Origin: Candidatus Didemnitutus sp.
Lineage (GTDB): Bacteria > Verrucomicrobiota > Verrucomicrobiia > Opitutales > Opitutaceae
DNA: 38,507 nucleotides
Direction of reading: 5' to 3'
Assembly (NCBI GenBank): GCA_023701285.1
Contig: JAMPXH010000029.1
Location: forward strand, 1 to 38,507
In this document: positions 3,089 through 11,111 of the stretch, piece by piece
Layout of the letters: each line of letters opens with the position of its first letter
Numbering within the stretch: position 1 is the stretch's first letter
Program-made: the position numbers and the translations under genes
The notes under the pieces: model-generated
Seen by the model: the letters and a program-made list of their open reading frames with translations, nothing else
Database searches by the model: none
Told to the model about the DNA's origin: nothing

Positions 3089-3706
3089 TTACGGCTTCGG
3101 CGCGTGGCGCTTTTCGAGGACGCTGAGCGCGTCCTGCAGCGAGAGGCCCTTGGCGCGGAGGAGCACGATGAGGTGGAAAAGCAGGTCGGCGGCTTCGTTG
3201 GCCAGCTCGACGTTGTCGCCTGCGGTGGCGGCGAGCGCGGTTTCCACGCCTTCCTCGCCGACCTTCTGCGCGACGCGCTTCACGCCTTCGCGCACGAGCT
3301 TGGCCGTGTAGCTCTTCTCGTCGCCGGATGCGATGCGCTGGTTCACCGTGCGCTCGAGTTGGGCGAGGAAACCGGTGCCGGTGGCGCCGCCGCCTTCGCC
3401 GAAGCACGAGCAGGTGCCGCGGTGGCAAGTCGGGCCGTTCGGGCGCGCGCGGACGAGCAGCGTGTCGGCGTCGCAATCGCCCTCGACGCTCACGAGGTCG
3501 AGGAAGTGGCCGGAGGATTCGCCCTTGGTCCAGAGGCGGTTCTTGGAGCGCGAGAAGAAGGTGACGCGCTTCGTCGCGAGCGTCTGCTCGAGCGCGGCGG
3601 CGTTCATGTAGCCGAGCATGAGCACCTGTTGCGTATCGGCGTCTTGGATGATGGCGGGCAAGAGCCCGTCGCCTTTTTGCCAGTCGAGAGAGGGGAGAGC
3701 GGTCAT
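3089..3706 (-). CDS. hisI: Bifunctional phosphoribosyl-AMP cyclohydrolase / phosphoribosyl-ATP pyrophosphatase HisIE
   Basis: The last gene of the histidine operon encodes 205 residues that carry out steps two and three of histidine synthesis. The N-terminal half is the HisI cyclohydrolase domain, with [34 protein letters not shown], the metal-binding DCDADTLL, and a Cys-rich CHRGTCSCF site. The C-terminal half is the HisE pyrophosphohydrolase helical bundle, with [13 protein letters not shown] and [14 protein letters not shown]. The frame continues upstream for 15 residues, but those come from a dispersed CACGAAT palindrome (3728-3812), so the ATG at 3706 preceded by AATTTCCC is preferred. 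The gap to hisF is 118 bp and is filled by that repeat. Confidence 0.95.
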
Positions 3707-3727
3707 GGGAAATTCGGAGGAGGAAAG

Positions 3728-3812
3728 CCACGAATGGACACGAATGAACACGAATCAGAAAGAGCTGAGTCGTGACTCGGGATCATTCGTGTGAATTCGT
3801 GTCCATTCGTGG
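3728..3812. repeat. CACGAAT palindromic repeat, family A, copy 1
   Basis: Two 28-base arms at 3728-3755 and 3785-3812 are reverse complements at about 26 of 28 positions, with a 29-base loop. Each arm contains the heptamer CACGAAT or its complement three times, spaced by 10 bases. A second copy lies at 37335-37418 with nearly the same arms and a different loop. The element sits inside the histidine operon between hisF and hisIE. Transcribed RNA would fold into a long hairpin that could affect read-through or mRNA stability. Similar elements recur in many environmental bacterial genomes, often producing spurious peptides with the motif FVSIRVHSW. Confidence 0.9.
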
Positions 3813-3824
3813 TTAAAACCTGGT

Positions 3825-4592
3825 TCAGGTGCGGACGCAGATGCCCTCGCGGGCGAGGTAGGATTTGAGGGTGGGGATCGGAATCGTGCCCTTGTGGAAG
3901 ACGGACGCGGCCAGCGCGCCGTCGACTTGGGCTTGTTGGAAGACGGCGCGGAAATGCTCGGGCGCGCCGGCTCCGCCGGAGGCGACGAGCGGGATCGTGA
4001 GCACCGCGCGGACGAGCTTGAGCTGCGCGAGATCGTAGCCGGCGCGCACGCCGTCCTGATTCATGCAGTTGAGGACGACTTCGCCGGCACCGAGGCGCTG
4101 CGCTTCGCGGGCCCAGTCGACCGTGCGCCAGCGGGTGGCGCGCGTCTTGTCGGGGTCGCCCGTGTAGGCTTTCACGAAGTAGTCGCCGTTCTCCTGGCGC
4201 GAATCGATGCCGACGACGACGGCTTGCGAGCCGAACTCGTCGGCCAGCGCGGTGACGAGCGCGGGGTTTTCGAGCGCGGGCGAGTTGAGCGAGACCTTGT
4301 CGGCGCCGCGGTGCAGGATCTGGCGGGCGCCGTCGAGCGAGCGGATGCCGCCGGCGACGCAGAACGGGATGTCGATCACGCGCGCGACGCGCTCGACCCA
4401 CGCCGCGGAGACGGTGCGGCCGTCGGAGCTGGCGGTGATGTCGTAGAAGACGAGCTCGTCGGCGCCGGCGTCGCGGTAACGCTGCGCCAGCTCGATGATG
4501 TCGCCCATGTCCTCGTGGTTGCGGAACTGGACGCCCTTCACGACGCGGCCATCGCGGACGTCGAGGCAGGGAATGATGCGGCGGGCTAGCAT
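3825..4592 (-). CDS. hisF: Imidazole glycerol phosphate synthase cyclase subunit HisF
   Basis: This 255-residue (beta/alpha)8 barrel joins ammonia from HisH to PRFAR, forming imidazole glycerol phosphate and AICAR. The catalytic aspartates are present at the canonical places: Asp11 in IIPCLDV and Asp130 in VVVGIDS. The phosphate-binding loops FCVAGGIRS and PLVASGGAG are intact, as is [15 protein letters not shown]. The length is normal for the family. The start is the ATG at 4592, which directly opens the conserved [13 protein letters not shown]-terminus and is preceded by ACTCCCCC. The gap to hisA is 54 bp and contains short direct repeats. Cytoplasmic, working as a heterodimer with HisH. 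Confidence 0.97.
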
Positions 4593-4646: not shown

Positions 4647-5375
4647 TCAGACGGCGAGTGCTTCCCGGAGCGTGAATTTCTTCTCGTAGAGTGCGCGGCC
4701 AACGATGGCGCCGGGGGCACCCTCGCGCTTGAGGCGGCGGAGATCGTCGAGCGACGAGACGCCGCCCGAGGCCTGCGCAGCGATGGTCGGGAAATCGCGG
4801 CGCAGCTGCGCGTAGAGTTCGAAGTTCGGTCCGGTCAGCTTGCCGTCGCGCGAGATGTCGGTGCAGAGGATGTGGCGCAGGCCGCGCGGGAGGAAGGTGC
4901 GGAGCGTGGCGTCGAGCGTGACGCCGCTGTCGGCCTGCCAGCCGGCGACGGCGATCATCGGCACGCCGGCGCCGTCGAGGCGCACGTCGAGGGCGAGGAC
5001 GATTTTATCCGGACCGAATTTCTCCAGCCAGCCGCCGACGAGGTCAGGTTGCTTCACGGCGAGGCTGCCGACGATCACGCGCTCCACGCCGGCGTCGAGC
5101 AGCGTGCGCACGTGCGACTCGTCGCGGACACCGCCGCCGGATTGGACGCGCAGGCCGCAGGTCTGGACGACGGCGGCGACGAGCGCGGTCTGGCGTTGCG
5201 CGGGGTCTTTGGCGCCGTCGAGGTCGACGAGGTGCAGCCACGGCGAGCCGGCGGCGGCGAACTCGCGCGCGACGGCGGCGGGATCGTCGAAGTAAGCCTT
5301 CTCGGCGTCGAAGCTGCCCTCGGTGAGGCGCACGACGCGGCCGCGGCGGAGATCGATGGCGGGATAGAGGATCAT
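4647..5375 (-). CDS. hisA: ProFAR isomerase HisA
   Basis: This 242-residue (beta/alpha)8 barrel performs the Amadori rearrangement of ProFAR to PRFAR, step four of histidine synthesis. The general acid/base aspartates are Asp8 (YPAIDLR) and Asp130 (IVLALDVR). Phosphate-binding repeats are VQSGGGVR in the first half and AQASGGVSS in the second. TDISRDGKLTGPN is the usual conserved C-terminal block. The start codon overlaps the hisH stop by four bases (ATGA), indicating translational coupling. Length and motifs are ordinary, so function is secure. Confidence 0.97.
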   Translation of the reverse strand: MILYPAIDLRRGRVVRLTEGSFDAEKAYFDDPAAVAREFAAAGSPWLHLVDLDGAKDPAQRQTALVAAVVQTCGLRVQSGGGVRDESHVRTLLDAGVERVIVGSLAVKQPDLVGGWLEKFGPDKIVLALDVRLDGAGVPMIAVAGWQADSGVTLDATLRTFLPRGLRHILCTDISRDGKLTGPNFELYAQLRRDFPTIAAQASGGVSSLDDLRRLKREGAPGAIVGRALYEKKFTLREALAV

Positions 5376-5965
5376 GCGGGGAGGGCCAAAAAGTTCTGCA
5401 GTAACTGCGCACCGGCGGCCCCGGAGCGCTCGGGATGGAATTGCACGCCGTAGAAGTTGCCGCGCTGGACGACGGCGGCGAAGGGCGCGCCGTGCGTGGC
5501 GGTGGCGAGGGTGAATTCGTTGACCGGGCCGGCGAAGCTGTGGACGAAGTAGAAGCGCGCGTCGCGCGCGATGCCGGCGAGGAGCGGCGTGTCACGGAGC
5601 ACTTCGAGGGTGTTCCAACCCATGTGCGGCACAGTGATGCCGGGCGTCTCGGGGATGCGTGCGACGCGGCCGGGGATGAGGCCGAGCGACGTGGTGTCGC
5701 CTTCCGCGGAAGATTCGAAGAGCAGCTGTTCGCCGAGGCAGAAGCCGATCACGGGCTGCGTGAGGCTGCGGATGACCTCGACGAGGTTCTTCTCGCGGAG
5801 TTTGCGCATGCCCTCCTGCGCAGAGCCGACGCCGGGCAGGATGACGCGCTCGGCGGAGCGGATCACGGCCGGATCGGCGGTGAGTTCGCTGGCGATGCCG
5901 AGGCGCTCGAGGGCGAAACGGACGGAGGCGATATTGGCGCCGCCGCTGTCGACGATGGCCAGCAT
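5372..5965 (-). CDS. hisH: Imidazole glycerol phosphate synthase glutaminase subunit HisH
   Basis: This 197-residue class I glutamine amidotransferase supplies ammonia to HisF. The catalytic triad is visible: Cys76 in the nucleophile elbow VIGFCLGEQLLF, and His177 plus Glu179 in VQFHPERSG. The N-terminal MLAIVDSGGANIASVRFALE and VILPGVGSAQEG blocks are typical. The start overlaps the hisB stop by one base (TGATG) and the stop overlaps hisA by four, so the three genes are tightly coupled. GFCLGEQ differs slightly from the more common GICLGMQ but keeps all key residues. Confidence 0.97.
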   Translation of the reverse strand: MLAIVDSGGANIASVRFALERLGIASELTADPAVIRSAERVILPGVGSAQEGMRKLREKNLVEVIRSLTQPVIGFCLGEQLLFESSAEGDTTSLGLIPGRVARIPETPGITVPHMGWNTLEVLRDTPLLAGIARDARFYFVHSFAGPVNEFTLATATHGAPFAAVVQRGNFYGVQFHPERSGAAGAQLLQNFLALPA

Positions 5966-7029
5966 CAGAGCACTCCTTTCGAGCTCGGGATCTCGCTGCC
6001 GGCGCCGCGGGCGACGGCGGGGCGCAGCGCGCGGCCGAAGCCCTTGAACAGGGCCTCGATCATGTGGTGCGTGTTGTCGCCGGTGACCTTCATGTGGAGC
6101 GTGGCGGCGAGCGTGTCGCTGACGGATTTGAAGAAGTGCGAAACCATCTCGGTCGGCATCTGGCCGACGTTCTCGCGCGGGAACTGCGCCTCGAACACGA
6201 GCCAGGCGCGGCCGCTGAGGTCGAGGGCGACGTCAGCGCGGGCCTCGTCCATCGGCATGACGAAGCCGTAGCGGCCGATGCCGCGTTTGTCGCCGAGGGC
6301 TTGGCGGAGCGCGGTGCCGAGGGCGAGGCCGACGTCCTCGATCGTGTGGTGCTCGTCGATGTGGAGGTCGCCGTCGCAGGTGATCACGAGGCTGATGCCG
6401 GCGTTGCGGGCGATCTGCTCGAGCATGTGGTCGAAGAAGCCGAGGCCGGTCTGAAGGCGGATGGGCGCCGGGGCGTCGAGGTCGACGGTGACGGAGATTT
6501 TCGTCTCCTTCGTCTCGCGGCGGATGGTGGCGCGGCGCGGGGCGTCGAGAAAATCGCGGGCGAGCGCGAGCCACGGCGTGGTCTGGCACGCGTAACGGAC
6601 GCCGCGGATGCCGAGCGCTTCGGCGAGCTGGAGATCGGTGTCGCGATCGCCGATGACGGCGGAGGCGGCGCGGTCCCAGGAGGTGTCGCGCAGGTAGTCG
6701 AGGAGGAGGCCGACCTTCGGCTTGCGGCAGTCGCAGCCGTCACCGGGCTTATGCGGGCAGATGCGGACGGCTTCGAACACGATGCCTTGGGAGGCGAGGA
6801 CGCGGACGAGCAGGTCCTGCAGCGGGCGGAACTGTTCCTCGGGGAAACTGGCGGTGCCGAGGCCGTCCTGATTTGTGACCATGACGAAGGTGTAACCGGC
6901 CTCGGCGAAGCGGCGAAGGGCGGGCACGACGTCGGGTTCGAGCGCGAACTTGTCGAGGCGGTCGATCTGGAAGTCGGCGGGCTCGGCGATGAGCGTGCCG
7001 TCGCGGTCGAGGAAGAGGATTTTTTTCAT
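5965..7029 (-). CDS. hisB: Bifunctional histidinol-phosphatase / imidazoleglycerol-phosphate dehydratase HisB
   Basis: This 354-residue fusion carries out steps six and eight. The N-terminal HAD phosphatase has the DxD nucleophile pair Asp8/Asp10 (FLDRDGTL), the VTNQDGLG motif, and a zinc loop with Cys91, His93, Cys99 and Cys101 (CPHKPGDGCDCRKPK). The C-terminal dehydratase starts near residue 175 and has the metal-binding His sets FFDHML (201), DEHHTIED (227-228) and NTHHMIE (321-322). The start at 7029 opens MKKILFLDRDGT directly, and upstream in-frame residues are read-through from the hisC end. The fused form is typical of gammaproteobacteria and some other phyla. The gap from hisC is 28 bp. 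Confidence 0.97.
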   Translation of the reverse strand: MKKILFLDRDGTLIAEPADFQIDRLDKFALEPDVVPALRRFAEAGYTFVMVTNQDGLGTASFPEEQFRPLQDLLVRVLASQGIVFEAVRICPHKPGDGCDCRKPKVGLLLDYLRDTSWDRAASAVIGDRDTDLQLAEALGIRGVRYACQTTPWLALARDFLDAPRRATIRRETKETKISVTVDLDAPAPIRLQTGLGFFDHMLEQIARNAGISLVITCDGDLHIDEHHTIEDVGLALGTALRQALGDKRGIGRYGFVMPMDEARADVALDLSGRAWLVFEAQFPRENVGQMPTEMVSHFFKSVSDTLAATLHMKVTGDNTHHMIEALFKGFGRALRPAVARGAGSEIPSSKGVL

Positions 7030-7057: not shown

Positions 7058-8122
7058 TCAGCCGCGGGAAAGAACCTCCAGCGCAAAGGCGGTCTCGGCG
7101 GGCGAGCCGATGGTGATGCGGACGGTGTTGGGCACGTCCTTGCTGCGGTCGCGGATGATGAGGCCGGCGGCGCGCGCGAGTTGCATGATGCGGGCGGAGT
7201 CGGTGACGGCGACGAGGAGGAAATTGGCGTCGCTCGACCAAACCGTGCGCACGTAGGGCAGGCGAAGAAGCGCGGCGGCGAGGCGCTCGCGTCCGGCCAC
7301 GAGGTCGGCGGCGGAACGGCGCGCGGCGGCGATGGCGTCGGGCGTGAGTGCGGCGAGTGCGGCGCTGACGACGGGCGTGGGGATCGGGTAGGGTGCGAGG
7401 ATCTTTTGCAGCACGCCGATGAGCTCCGGCGCGGCGAGCGTCACGCCGACGCGGGCGCCGGCGAGGCCGAAGGCCTTGGAGAGCGTGCGGAGCACGACGA
7501 GGTTGGCGCGCGACGGAAGCGCGGAGACGAGGCTCTCGCCGGCGGAGAATTCGGCGTAGGCCTCGTCGACCACGACGACGGCGCGTCCGGCAAGGGCGTC
7601 GACGATCTGCAGCACGTCGGCGCGCGCGAGGTTCCGGCCCGTTGGGTTGTTGGGCGAGCAGAGGAAGACGAGTTTCACGTCGGGGCCCGCGGCGCCGATC
7701 ACGGCGGCGGGGTCGACGGCGAAATCCTTTTCCGCGACGAGCGGCGCGGTGCGCACGGCGGCGCCCTGGATGCCCGCGGCGACGACATACATGCCGTAGG
7801 TCGGCGGCGTGATGAGGATGGCGTCGTGGCCGGCGCGGCAGAAGGCGCGCACGAGCAGGTCGATGCCTTCGTCGGAGCCGCGGGTGACGAGAATGCCGTC
7901 GGGCGCGGTGCCGTAGAGCGAGGCGAGGCGCGCGACGAGTTCGGGCGGCTGCGGCTCCGGATAGCGGTTGAGCAGCGGCGCGCCGGCGTGAGGTGTCGCG
8001 GGGTTTTCGTTGGCGTCGAGCCAGACCTTGCCGCCCTTGGACTCCTTGCGGGCGGAGGAATAAGGGGCGAGCGCGAGGATCTCGGGGCGGACGAGCGCGA
8101 GCGTGGCGGCGGGTGAGTTCAC
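7058..8122 (-). CDS. hisC: Histidinol-phosphate aminotransferase HisC
   Basis: This 354-residue PLP-dependent fold-type I aminotransferase converts imidazole acetol phosphate plus glutamate to histidinol phosphate. Visible motifs are LDANENP near the start, TRGSDEGIDLLVRAF, SPNNPTG (158-163), VVVVDEAYAEF, and the PLP-binding lysine in RTLSKAFGLAGARVG (Lys217). The start is best placed at the GTG at 8122, preceded by CTTTTCCC and only 10 bases after the hisD stop. The open frame goes further upstream, but that stretch overlaps the end of hisD and is Pro/Ala-rich. Homodimeric and cytoplasmic. Confidence 0.95.
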   Translation of the reverse strand: MNSPAATLALVRPEILALAPYSSARKESKGGKVWLDANENPATPHAGAPLLNRYPEPQPPELVARLASLYGTAPDGILVTRGSDEGIDLLVRAFCRAGHDAILITPPTYGMYVVAAGIQGAAVRTAPLVAEKDFAVDPAAVIGAAGPDVKLVFLCSPNNPTGRNLARADVLQIVDALAGRAVVVVDEAYAEFSAGESLVSALPSRANLVVLRTLSKAFGLAGARVGVTLAAPELIGVLQKILAPYPIPTPVVSAALAALTPDAIAAARRSAADLVAGRERLAAALLRLPYVRTVWSSDANFLLVAVTDSARIMQLARAAGLIIRDRSKDVPNTVRITIGSPAETAFALEVLSRG

Positions 8123-8132
8123 GGGAAAAGGA

Positions 8133-9434
8133 TCAGGAGGAAAGACGCCGCAGGCGAACGCTGACGGCGCGCTGGTGGGCGGCGAGGCCCTCCGCGGTGG
8201 CGAGGCGTTCGACGACGGGGCCAAGTTTGGCGAGGCCGCGCGGGGTGGCTTCCTGCACGGTCATGGTGCGGGAGAAATCGGCGAGGCCGAGGCCGCTGTA
8301 GGCGCGGGCCCAGCCGTAGGTAGGGAGCACGTGGTTGGTGCCGCTGGCGTAGTCGCCGAGCGACTCGGGCGTCCACGGGCCGACGAAGACCGAACCGGCG
8401 GCCGCGATCTGCGGGAGCAGCGCGCGCGGCTGCGCGAGTTGGAGAATGAGATGCTCGGGCGCGTAGGCGTTGGCGATGGCGGCGGCTTCGGCCGCGTTGG
8501 CGGCGAGGATGAAGCGGCTCTGCGCGAGGGCGCGCCGGGCGATGGCGGCGCGCGGGAGGTCGGCGAGCTGCTGCTCCACCGCGGCGGAGACGCGCGGCAG
8601 GAGGGCGCGGCTCAATGAGACGAGGACGACTTGCGAGTCCGGGCCGTGCTCGGCTTGCGAGAGCAGGTCGGCGGCGACGAAGACCGGATCGGCGGAGGCG
8701 TCGGCAATGACCATGACTTCGGACGGGCCGGCGGGCAGGTCGATGGCGGCGCCGTCGGCGGTGGCGGAGACCTGTTGTTTGGCCTCGGTGACGAAGGCGT
8801 TGCCGGGACCGAAGAGTTTGTCGCACTTCGGGATCGTGGCGGTGCCGAAGGCGAGCGCGGCGACGGCCTGGGCGCCGCCGACTTTGAAGACGTCGCGGAT
8901 GCCGCAGAGTTGGGCGGCGAAGAGTATCCACGGGCTCACGCGTCCGTCCTTGCCCGGCGGGGTGCAGAGCACGCGCACAGGGCAGTCGGCGAGTTGCGAG
9001 GGCACACCGAGCATGAGCGCGGTGGAGAAGAGCGGGGCGCTGCCGCCGGGGACGTAGAGGCCGACGCGGGCGATCGGGCGCGAGAGTTTTTCGCAGACGA
9101 GGCCCGGCATCGTGGCGACGCGCACGGGCTTCGCGGTCTGGGCGGCGTGGAAGCGGCGGAGGTTGCGGTAAGCGGTGCGGAGTGCGGCGCGGTCGGCGGC
9201 GGAGAGCGCCCTTTCGGCGGCCGCGAACTCGGCCTCGCTCACGCGGAGGGAGGCGAGTTGCACGCCGTCGAATTTCGCCGTCAGGCGGCGGAGCGCCTGA
9301 TCGCCGTCGCGCCGGACCTCGGCGACGAGGCGCGAGACGGCGGCCGCGATCTGCGGGCGCGCGGCTTGCGCTGGCCGTTGGAGGGCGGCGCGACGCTGGG
9401 CGGGCGAAAGTTTTTTCCAGACGAGCGGGGGCAT
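8133..9434 (-). CDS. hisD: Histidinol dehydrogenase HisD
   Basis: This 433-residue zinc enzyme performs the last two oxidations, histidinol to histidine, with two NAD+. Zinc ligands map one residue off the E. coli numbering: Gln260 and His263 ([11 protein letters not shown]), Asp361 ([16 protein letters not shown]) and His420. The catalytic Glu327-His328 pair is in YAPEHL. The NAD-site blocks [15 protein letters not shown] and [10 protein letters not shown] are intact. The stop is 10 bases before hisC and the start is 8 bases after the hisG stop. Its length is normal, so the call is secure. Confidence 0.97.
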
Positions 9435-9442
9435 GGCGGACT

Positions 9443-10357
9443 TCAGAGCATCATCTTCTCGATGGGGAGGACAAGGATGCTGCTGGCGCCGGCACGCTTG
9501 AGCGACTCCATCGTTTCCCAGAAGACGGCTTCCTGGCAGACGGCGTGGACAGCGACCTTGGAATCGTCGCCGGCGAGCGGGAGGAGGGTCGGGTTCTCGG
9601 AGCCGGGGAGGAGCTGCTTGATTTCATCCAGCGCGCTCTTCGGGGCGTGGAGCATGATGTATTTGGCCTCGGCGGCGAGCTGCACGCCGTCGATGCGGCG
9701 GAGGAGGATGTCGAGGGCGTGGCGCTTGACCGGATCGAGCGCGCGGTCGCAGCGGATGAGCGTGGCCTTGGACTTGAAGATGGTCTCGACGGCGCGGAGG
9801 CGGTTGGCCTCGAGGGTGGAGCCGGTGGCGACGAGGTCGCAGATGGCGTCGGCGAGGCCGAGGCGCGGGGCGATCTCGACGGAGCCGGTGAGGAGGACGA
9901 CGTCGGCCTTGATGCCTTTTTCCGCGAAGTAACGCTTGGTCAGGCGCGGGTAGGACGTGGCGATGCGGAGGCCGGCGAGGTCGGAGGGTGCGGAGTAGGC
10001 GCGCTCCTCGGGAATGGCGATGGCGAGGCGGCAGCCGCCGAAGTCGAGGCGGCGGTCGACGACGTAGGGATTGGCCTCGCCGCCGGAACTGCGCTCGAGG
10101 GCGGTTTCCTCAAGGACGTTCTCGCCGACGATGCCGAGGTCGCACACGCCGTCCATGACGAGCTGCGGGATGTCGTCGTCGCGGACAAAGAGGATATCGA
10201 TGGGGAAGTTTTCCGCGTGGAGGAGGAGCTTCTCCTTGGGGGCTTTGACCTTGATGCCGCAGCGATTCAGGAGGTCGAGGCAGTCGGTGGAGAGGCGTCC
10301 GCTCTTCTGGATGGCGAGGCGGAGGCGGTCTTTGGGCGGAGGTGTGGCGGGAGGCAT
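9443..10357 (-). CDS. hisG: ATP phosphoribosyltransferase HisG, long form
   Basis: This is the first enzyme of the pathway, joining ATP and PRPP. At 304 residues it is the long form with a C-terminal regulatory ACT-like domain, so it should be feedback-inhibited by histidine and needs no HisZ. The sequence is strikingly like the enterobacterial enzyme. IQKSGRLS and [13 protein letters not shown] lie near the N-terminus, [15 protein letters not shown] and [20 protein letters not shown] in the catalytic domain, and [20 protein letters not shown] at the end. The ATG at 10357 is preceded by TTCCTCCC. An attenuator-like leader with a His-rich peptide lies directly upstream. Confidence 0.97.
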
Positions 10358-10409
10358 GGGAGGAAGTGGGCGAAGGGCGGAAGGCGATGGGCGATGGGTG
10401 AGAGACGGG

Positions 10410-10449
10410 AAAACGAAGAACCCCGGTGGCTTGGCGCCGACCGGGGTTC
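10410..10449 (-). terminator. Attenuator terminator of the his leader
   Basis: On the minus strand a perfect 10-bp stem, GAACCCCGGT (10449-10440) paired with ACCGGGGTTC (10427-10418), encloses a 12-base loop. It is followed at once by the T-rich tract TTCGTTTT. It sits between the His-codon peptide and hisG, 52 bases before the hisG start. This is the expected position of the terminator hairpin in a his attenuator. Confidence 0.88.
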
Positions 10450-10462
10450 AGAAAGAGGGATT

Positions 10463-10522
10463 CATCACCACGAGAAGGCACCGGCCTTCCCGGGGGGAAG
10501 GCTGTCAGACGTGGTGGTGATG
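10463..10522 (-). promoter_or_regulatory. his leader RNA pairing segments (pause/anti-anti-terminator region)
   Basis: In the minus-strand transcript the His-codon segment CATCACCAC (complement of 514-522 past 10000) can pair perfectly over 9 bp with GTGGTGATG encoded at 10471-10463. That pairing encloses a strong inner hairpin with 8-bp arms at 10502-10495 and 10491-10484 and a 3-base loop. A ribosome stalled on His codons would block this pairing. This is the geometry of a leader that chooses between terminator and anti-terminator structures. The alternative anti-terminator pairing was not computed, so the switching mechanism is inferred. Confidence 0.65.
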
Positions 10523-10537
10523 GTGGTTGAGGATCAT
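10505..10537 (-). CDS. hisL: his operon leader peptide (HisL-like)
   Basis: On the minus strand, upstream of hisG, a short frame reads MILNHHHHHV and stops. The five consecutive His codons are CAC CAT CAC CAC CAC. The same frame is open to an earlier ATG at 10600, which would give a 31-residue peptide with two more histidines (IHSPHDQP before the M). Neither start has a clear ribosome binding site. As in enterobacterial hisL, slow translation of the His run when charged tRNA-His is scarce should prevent the downstream terminator (10410-10449) from forming. The composition and position make chance unlikely. The exact start is uncertain. Confidence 0.85.
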   Translation of the reverse strand: MILNHHHHHV

Positions 10538-10661
10538 TGGTTGATCGTGCGGCGAATGAATCGGCAGGCCCGGGGGTGTCGCAAGGATATTTTCCCGCAT
10601 GACACGGGAGGCGGGCGTGGCGTGGGCGGTGCTGCGCCCGCGTCGCGGCAGGGCGTGCGGC

Positions 10662-11111
10662 TCAGGGGAGCTTGGCCTGCACGAGTTTGCTGGCGGCGCC
10701 GAAGTCGATGAGGGCGGCCTCGGGGCGCTGCTTGAGGGCGCCGATGACCTTGCCCATTTCCTTCTTCGAGGTGGCGCCGGTGGCGGCGATGACCTCCGCG
10801 ATGAGGGCTTCGAGCTTGGCGGGGTCGAGGCTGGCGGGGAGATATTTCTCGAGGATGGCGATCTCGGCGGTGTTGGCGGCGACGAGGTCGGCGCGGCCGC
10901 CTTTCTCGAATTCGGCGCGGGCGTCGGAGAGGTTCTTCACGGCCTTGCGGACGGTCGTGAGGGCGAGGGCGTCGTCGATGGGCTTGTTGGCGTCCATGGC
11001 GGCGCGCTGGATGGCGGCGTCCATGGTGCGGAGCGCGGTGGCGCGGGCGGTGTCGCGGGCTTTCATGGCCGCGACGATGTCGGCGCGGAGGGTTTCGTAG
11101 ACGTTGGCCAT
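10662..11111 (-). CDS. GatB/YqeY domain protein
   Basis: This 149-residue protein of the YqeY family shares the tRNA-contacting helical domain of GatB but is not part of an amidotransferase. Typical features are the N-terminal LRADIVAAMKARDTARATALRTM helix, the central EFEKGGRADLVAANTAEIAILEKYLP block, and the C-terminal TSKKEMGKVIGALKQRPEAALIDFGAASKLVQAKL. Family members are cytoplasmic and their role is not settled; many lie near translation genes. The stop is about 60 bases upstream of the his leader, so both are on the same strand and could share some transcription. Confidence 0.9.
   Translation of the reverse strand: MANVYETLRADIVAAMKARDTARATALRTMDAAIQRAAMDANKPIDDALALTTVRKAVKNLSDARAEFEKGGRADLVAANTAEIAILEKYLPASLDPAKLEALIAEVIAATGATSKKEMGKVIGALKQRPEAALIDFGAASKLVQAKLP

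Follow-up and report, generated by a model that had tools for sequence, protein, structure and literature searches.

A predicted histidine leader-peptide attenuator of the enteric kind precedes a gammaproteobacterial-type his operon in Opitutaceae (Verrucomicrobiota)

Vitreschak and others are said to have described attenuators in proteobacteria in 2004. A leader-peptide switch requires only ribosomes and RNA polymerase, and such an attenuator should therefore be portable. The spacer 5′ of hisG in the window (the whole 38,507-nucleotide stretch of Opitutaceae DNA analyzed here) raises the question of whether a switch of this kind governs histidine biosynthesis in a verrucomicrobium and, if so, where it came from. 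Judging from sequence, and with a probability that we put at roughly 0.85, a ribosome-mediated transcription attenuator controls hisGDC(NB)HAF(IE) and was probably acquired with the operon from a gammaproteobacterium-like donor.

The initial annotation had placed a peptide with five His codons, MILNHHHHHV, between a yqeY-like gene and hisG. This reading was confirmed on the minus strand, from 10537 to 10505:

10505 to 10537, minus strand: leader peptide ORF (hisL-like), MILNHHHHHV and stop, read from the sequence, with aligned counterparts in 30/30 leaders
10511 to 10525, minus strand: five consecutive His codons, from the sequence and a scan for CAYx5

The ORF comprises 10 codons 5′ of hisG, from ATG at 10537 to a TGA stop codon at 10507-10505. 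The CAYx5 run occurs a single time in the window (0/100 shuffles) and three times in the 4.0-Mb draft genome, the leader's copy included. By our reading of the translations, the second occurrence encodes a His-rich segment within a GTPase-like protein; the third lies out of frame within a permease-like gene.

To survey relatives, we used a covariance model, R1, built from 13 leaders of Opitutaceae only. At E ≤ 0.001, R1 matched 37/252 genomes of the family: 32 strongly (106 to 144 bits), all in the three genera g1, g10, and g38, and 5 weakly (26 to 36 bits). The weak matches L147, L153, and L155 fall in tRNA-like regions and were taken as chance by eye. Two g1 genomes, each under 90% complete, gave no R1 match. 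In a scan of the phylum (387 genomes, stricter filters), strong matches were confined to Opitutaceae. Thirty of the 32 strong leaders were analyzed further, leaving out those of G208 and G209 as well as a weaker second copy in G203 (G203:C235:6314-6445, only 58 bits). Window included, the peptides of these 30 have 9 to 11 residues with 3 to 6 His codons; MVLNHHHHHSS, MITHHHHLHVS, and MVRNHHHVS are examples from relatives. A search for HisG in 150 family genomes matched 139, of which 13 were at 72 to 100% identity and the others at about 26 to 35%, plus one 80-residue fragment. The comparison of this spacer among relatives with the same operon, which the initial annotation had called for, bore out its expectation: the His run and terminator are conserved, and the leader is present in 13/13 genomes with the gammaproteobacterial-type HisG. 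No His run was found before hisG in leaderless loci of the family, a full check being possible at 14/17.

The leader start had been left between 10537 and 10600. Homology begins at 10537, and a conserved TTGC element falls between the two candidates, so 10537 is favored and 10600 was rejected. The aligned start codon in the other 29/30 leaders is ATG (28) or GTG (1), and TTGC stands 40 to 47 nt 5′ of the start codon in 29/30. The L142 leader (G203:C137; peptide MGFHHHSPLS) is without an upstream TTGC. In the window, the conserved TTGC forms part of the following element:

10556 to 10584, minus strand: promoter-like pair TTGCGA (10584-10579) and ATTCAT (10561-10556), 17 nt apart, proposed from TTGC conservation

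In many leaders, CATCAA or a T-rich stretch follows 17 nt past the hexamer. The TTGC element may thus be a promoter, which would give a 5′ untranslated region (UTR) of roughly 10 nt. A simple scan of 10200-10900 detected no sigma-70 promoter, and AGGA, GGAG, or GAGG was absent from the last 18 nt before the start in 29/30 leaders (1/30 positive).

Downstream of the His codons, the leader RNA can be divided into segments, given here in 5′ to 3′ order:

10514 to 10522, minus strand: segment A, within the His codons, partner of A′ (9 bp in the MFE fold without ribosome)
10495 to 10502, minus strand: segment B, GCCUUCCC, directly 3′ of the stop codon (B:C pairing; footprint coverage)
10484 to 10491, minus strand: segment C, GGGAAGGC, partner of B or D (C:D pair counts)
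10472 to 10482, minus strand: segment D, in which GCCUUCUC (10479-10472) pairs with C and GGUGCC (10482-10477) with E (folds, pair counts)
10463 to 10471, minus strand: segment A′, GUGGUGAUG, complementary to the His codons (MFE fold)
10418 to 10449, minus strand: predicted intrinsic terminator hairpin E:F, with a 10-bp lower and a 3-bp upper stem (fold)
10433 to 10438, minus strand: GGCGCC, forming the terminator's upper stem and loop, and antiterminator partner of D (MFE fold with a stalled ribosome, transcript ending ahead of the 3′ arm)
10410 to 10417, minus strand: interrupted T tract, UUCGUUUU (sequence)

The pairings reported initially were all found again in sequence or fold: 9 bp between the His codons and a later segment (CAUCACCAC at 10522-10514 with GUGGUGAUG at 10471-10463), an inner 8-bp hairpin (GCCUUCCC at 10502-10495 with GGGAAGGC at 10491-10484), and a perfect 10-bp terminator stem (GAACCCCGGU at 10449-10440 with ACCGGGGUUC at 10427-10418), to which an inner GGC/GCC is added. 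The accompanying T tract is present but interrupted. The fold of 10540-10400 has z = −5.5, with 0/200 shuffles as good, and the hairpin energy of the terminator is −26.1 in the window (median over 30 leaders, −21.3). In all 30 leaders, 7 to 11 T occur in the 12 nt past the GGGG of the stem. A simple scan of 10200-10900 limited to loops of 3 to 8 and 5 T in 8 returned no terminator. The role first given to the His-codon pairing did not hold. A:A′ forms in the ribosome-free fold with the terminator intact alongside it and was dropped as antiterminator; the predicted antiterminator is instead a separate helix, D:E, and the original scheme also had no counterpart of helix C:D. B:C excludes C:D, and D:E excludes the terminator E:F.

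These mutually exclusive helices suggest the following working. Transcription would start just 5′ of the leader ATG. When His-tRNA is short, a ribosome would stall at the His codons, leaving B free to pair with C; with B:C formed, D would be available to pair with the terminator's 5′ arm and loop (D:E), and transcription by RNA polymerase would continue into hisG. When His-tRNA is ample, the ribosome would reach the stop codon with its footprint over B, so that C:D could pair; the terminator E:F would then form, and transcription would end before hisG. If the leader were untranslated, the His codons would base-pair with A′, enclosing the B:C hairpin, and E:F would again form.

We compared this scheme with computed ribosome geometry, assuming a footprint that extends 12 nt past the start of the A-site codon. 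With that footprint, all of B would lie under a ribosome at the stop codon in 30/30 leaders. In 27/30, B would remain free when the ribosome stalls at any His codon except the final one; in L138, L142, and L144, it would remain free at every His codon. The relation is kept although peptide length (9 to 11) and the offset from stop codon to B vary. In folds of transcripts cut before the 3′ arm of the terminator (means of 30), a stall at a middle His codon gave probabilities of 0.99 for B:C and 0.00 for C:D, with 13.5 paired bases in D:E, and a ribosome at the stop codon (B masked) gave 0.45 for C:D and 9.9 paired bases in D:E. Under the latter state, C:D exceeded 0.5 in 11/30 leaders and was 0.34 in the window. 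At equilibrium in full transcripts, the mean terminator probability was 0.95 with no ribosome, 0.86 with a stalled ribosome, and 0.98 with the ribosome at the stop codon. Comparing stalled with stop (rounded values), it was lower in 15/30 leaders, equal in 15, and higher in none, with the largest effects in L135, L136, L141, L122, and L142. Without a ribosome, the terminator was weak in L135 (0.02) and L122 (0.56). Folding the window by ribosome state, as the initial annotation had proposed, recovered the helices but did not separate the states at equilibrium: terminator probability was 1.00 in all three, so a switch in the window would have to be kinetic.

Conservation of the helices was assessed by duplex swaps (on 29 and 28 distinct rows) and pair counts; RNAalifold on the leader alignment returned only a partial consensus of 21 pairs. 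B:C and E:F are each paired in 99.2% of cells. C:D is paired in 89.9%, and 3 of its pairs have changes on both sides. For D:E, 77.5% of cells are paired versus 31.6 to 62.9% in six slid controls, with two-sided changes in 28 cells versus 5 to 13 in those controls; two of five D:E measures lay within shuffles (two-sided pair number, 56/500 as high; further pair types, 354/500). Shuffled partners were at least as good in 0.6% of cases for B:C, 0.3% for C:D, 1.8% for A:A′, and 10.5% for D:E. In the swap tests, whose significance is inflated by kinship of the sequences, C:D reached p = 0.0002 both overall and in the larger of the leader groups set by the D motif, the smaller group being invariant (p = 1.0). 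D:E reached p = 0.0002 overall (28 distinct rows), with 0.034 in the larger group and 0.70 in the smaller. Pooled within groups, D:E covariation was not significant (p = 0.118), and it may therefore rest largely on one old change. No covariation was detected for B:C, which hardly varies (p = 0.14), or for A:A′ (p = 0.80). The covarying stems anticipated in relatives are thus seen for C:D and, overall, D:E, but not for A:A′ or B:C.

Two simpler functions for the hairpin can be weighed against these results. One is that it simply closes the preceding gene (in the window, yqeY) or acts as a constitutive early terminator, the His-rich ORF being no sensor. The dominance of E:F in every equilibrium state of the window and the interrupted T tract there both fit such a function. 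However, YqeY is the upstream gene in only 4/30 loci while leader and terminator accompany hisG in 30/30, which assigns the leader to the his operon instead of its neighbor; the His run, the position of the stop codon, and the alternative helices are also conserved. We regard this explanation as very improbable. The second is that the leader peptide acts on hisG translation or mRNA stability and not on transcription termination, for which there is room in that termination is read from nucleotide sequence. Against it, the switched hairpin is GC-rich and in every one of the 30 leaders runs into the T-rich stretch described above; moreover, 174 to 265 nt separate the leader start from the beginning of the HisG match (13 loci measured), and in the window the distance from the end of the terminator stem to the hisG start codon is 60 nt. 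We hold this equally to have very little chance of being right. Transcription attenuation remains our preferred reading, and the element in all likelihood works like enteric his attenuation.

The genes that follow the leader bear on its origin. Eight his genes lie on the minus strand in the order found in Escherichia coli, hisGDC(NB)HAF(IE):

9443 to 10357, minus strand: hisG, long-form ATP phosphoribosyltransferase (TIGR00070 and TIGR03455 above cut-off; 62% identity to E. coli HisG)
8133 to 9434, minus strand: hisD (TIGR00069 above cut-off)
7058 to 8224, minus strand: hisC (TIGR01141 above cut-off; ORF as listed, the real start probably downstream, after hisD)
5965 to 7029, minus strand: hisB, bifunctional (hisNB), with the start set at the first ATG in the ORF as listed (above cut-off for NF003937 and TIGR01261)
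5372 to 5965, minus strand: hisH (48% identity to E. coli HisH, colinear)
4647 to 5375, minus strand: hisA (51% identity to E. coli HisA, colinear)
3825 to 4592, minus strand: hisF (67% identity to E. coli HisF)
3089 to 3751, minus strand: hisI, bifunctional hisIE by length and alignment (60% identity to E. coli hisI over the portion retrieved)

The hisI product also aligned colinearly over 195 to 215 residues in most other gammaproteobacteria compared. HisG is 59 to 63% identical to gammaproteobacterial proteins versus about 30% to those of leaderless family members; the corresponding values are 54 to 56% (two gammaproteobacteria) versus 39 to 45% (six leaderless members) for HisD and 67% versus 44 to 47% for HisF in comparisons of the same size. 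Among the matches listed, in which other phyla may be missed, the best 80 HisG relatives comprised 74 from Gammaproteobacteria and 6 from Opitutia/Opitutaceae metagenome-assembled genomes. In the six leaderless family genomes, distances of 40 kb or more separate hisG, hisD, and hisF from one another. HisNB scored above cut-off in 33/252 family genomes, including 31/32 leader genomes; in the remaining one, G133, there is a HisNB fragment only, at a contig end. None of the 13 genomes with gammaproteobacterial-type HisG gave a second HisG match, so the native HisG seems to have been lost. From these comparisons, the his operon is clearly foreign to Opitutaceae. In a quick HisG tree, the Opitutaceae clade stood beside 75 gammaproteobacterial rows, with the family's other HisG very far from both; when more Pseudomonadota were added, the clade stood among them, beside a group at 45 to 50% identity and two leaderless genomes. 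Both were quick trees with a long-branch warning (L119 was omitted as too short), and the donor and direction proposed here are accordingly tentative.

Other genomes of the family contain pieces of such genes. The HisB N-terminal domain scored above cut-off at G027:C29:864-1337 and G032:C84:12039-12515, with no strong leader match; G032 has a HisG at 29% identity, and G027 has no HisG match. In these two genomes, pieces of the foreign operon may have been transferred independently. A second hisD-like match at 38% identity (G071:C1:3446101-3447306), in a leader genome with gammaproteobacterial-type hisD, is perhaps a remnant of the native set.

If the operon is foreign, its leader may have come with it or been rebuilt in the new host. 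R1 was run on gammaproteobacterial his loci (47/74, plus E. coli K-12, for a total of 48). It recognized E. coli K-12 hisL (E = 8e-10) and found 41/48 loci at E ≤ 0.01 and 45/48 at E ≤ 1, each match directly 5′ of hisG, with 3 additional matches elsewhere (E 0.06 to 0.55). Every one of 24 gammaproteobacterial loci inspected had three or more consecutive His codons 5′ of hisG, His leaders were found in several other gammaproteobacterial families, and such a run lay upstream in 20/23 HisG genes of Pseudomonadota with an identity of 55% or higher. In the reverse direction, the Rfam His_leader model (RF00514; gathering score, 49 bits) scored the window leader at 23.5 bits (E 0.33) and listed 16/20 relatives at 26.9 to 45.7 bits (best E 4.5e-4), leaving 4 unlisted. 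Neither the window nor any of the 20 relatives reached the cut-off, below which model positions 1-126, covering both hairpins, matched in the right place in the window and those 16/20. A nucleotide profile of the whole leader hit the right place in 68/75 gammaproteobacterial loci (best E 1.8e-7; 7 matches elsewhere). This fell to 22/75 without the His codons (best E 0.001; 8 elsewhere) and to 0/75 without His codons and terminator (2 elsewhere). The match to gammaproteobacteria is therefore carried by His codons, terminator, and layout.

With 0/75 loci matched by the non-coding profile lacking the terminator, rebuilding after transfer is possible: the operon would have moved horizontally and the attenuator arisen anew by convergence instead of being carried along. 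Apart from the His codons and terminator, there is indeed no significant similarity to gammaproteobacterial leaders, and in its accessible text PMC2965389 offers dissimilarity of this sort as support for convergence of Firmicutes leaders. Some related HisG genes also stand without a leader: of the 23 Pseudomonadota genes with an identity of 55% or higher, 3 lack a CAYx3 in the 330 nt before them, and for the five at 45 to 50% the only CAYx3 runs (3 loci) appear by eye to lie within an upstream gene. Against convergence, the architecture is the same down to the stop codon directly before B, covariance models match in both directions (Rfam's below its cut-off), HisNB accompanies nearly every leader, and the leaders of Alishewanella, Rheinheimera, and Arsukibacterium look similar by eye. 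We therefore consider rebuilding unlikely and descent from a gammaproteobacterial leader quite likely. The leader was probably acquired jointly with the operon, although its non-coding part by itself has only marginal similarity.

By architecture, the predicted element is of the enteric his attenuator kind, though below the Rfam score. It shares with E. coli K-12 hisL and RF00514 a His run in a short ORF, a stop codon adjoining B, a complement of the His codons past D, a terminator before hisG, and the same eight-gene order. The stop codon is UAG in E. coli and most relatives versus UGA in the window, and the peptides have 3 to 6 His in 9 to 11 residues versus 7 His in 16 residues in E. coli. 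Unlike E. coli hisL and RF00514, the Opitutaceae leaders have the GC-rich arms GCCUUCCC and GGGAAGGC, lack a Shine-Dalgarno-like string in 29/30, and belong to another phylum; the best relative reaches 45.7 bits and the window 23.5 against the cut-off of 49.

The idea that this element extends his attenuation to another phylum stands insofar as a predicted attenuator with conserved leader and terminator occurs in Verrucomicrobiota; it is not the first outside the enterics, given predictions in Firmicutes (PMC9413887, PMC2965389). As far as its accessible text goes, PMC9413887 predicts His attenuators in the Bacillus cereus group, Eubacteriales, and Erysipelotrichales, with one likely transfer within the phylum. 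Those attenuators resemble the present one in having 3 to 5 His codons and a terminator/antiterminator before a his operon outside Proteobacteria; their motifs are reported there as novel, the authors having found no RF00514-type match in Firmicutes, while here a gammaproteobacterial-type leader precedes a gammaproteobacterial-type operon. The accessible part of PMC2965389 describes bacilli in which His leader peptides precede hisS/hisZ paralogues, likewise outside Proteobacteria, reports these leaders as dissimilar to those of Proteobacteria, and weighs transfer against convergence for Firmicutes; in contrast, the whole-leader covariance-model match to gammaproteobacteria is strong here. PMC3766115, in the portion available, suggests a gamma-proteobacterial origin of attenuator motifs and very few cases of transfer. 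PMC8305728 advances, in its accessible portion, transfer of a GDC[NB]HAF[IE] operon from gamma-proteobacteria as a hypothesis, and "Verrucomicrob-" does not occur in that portion. A search for literature on His attenuation in Verrucomicrobia or Opitutaceae, with most subscription journals beyond its reach, found nothing related. Independent invention by the phylum is not indicated on present evidence, the leader preceding a gammaproteobacterial-type his operon. The mechanism itself is known; what is new is the phylum, together with a good case for joint transfer of operon and switch, the leader apparently having been transferred in a form still recognizable as gammaproteobacterial-type.

Candidate leaders were also seen at other biosynthetic genes. 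In family f38 (Verrucomicrobiota), ORFs of about 32 codons rich in Ile, Val, and Leu lie upstream of ilvB-like genes in 10/17 loci (L196-L203, L205, L206; for example, MFISLANLIIVIILSVIVLLGVSALGVLPEPT in L199), and 5/17 have a GC hairpin with T tract according to a simple pattern search. With gene identity read from translation, these look like ilv attenuators of Verrucomicrobiota. In Opitutaceae, a short ORF (MINDLSIITRPSGVGILA, then stop) with a strong terminator (L146 1501-1624) precedes a gene whose translation reads as citramalate synthase-like; L149 1501-1625 has a similar reading and a strong terminator, with no ATG at the match start.

These results suggest that a leader-peptide switch can travel between distant bacterial groups with its genes. 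How such attenuators spread between phyla, by transfer or by new origin, has been left open in print, and a foreign operon with a leader that profiles still recognize makes the question testable in culturable relatives, for example Lacunisphaera, if a cultured strain carries the leader. On balance we lean slightly toward a wider account in which a complete gammaproteobacterial-type his operon entered Verrucomicrobiota, replaced scattered native his genes in one lineage of Opitutaceae, and brought a working attenuator. Selection would have maintained it since then in hosts that seem to initiate the leader from a very short 5′ UTR lacking a Shine-Dalgarno sequence. If this account is true, then together with the ilvB leaders, leader-peptide attenuation would be a general regulatory mode in Verrucomicrobiota.
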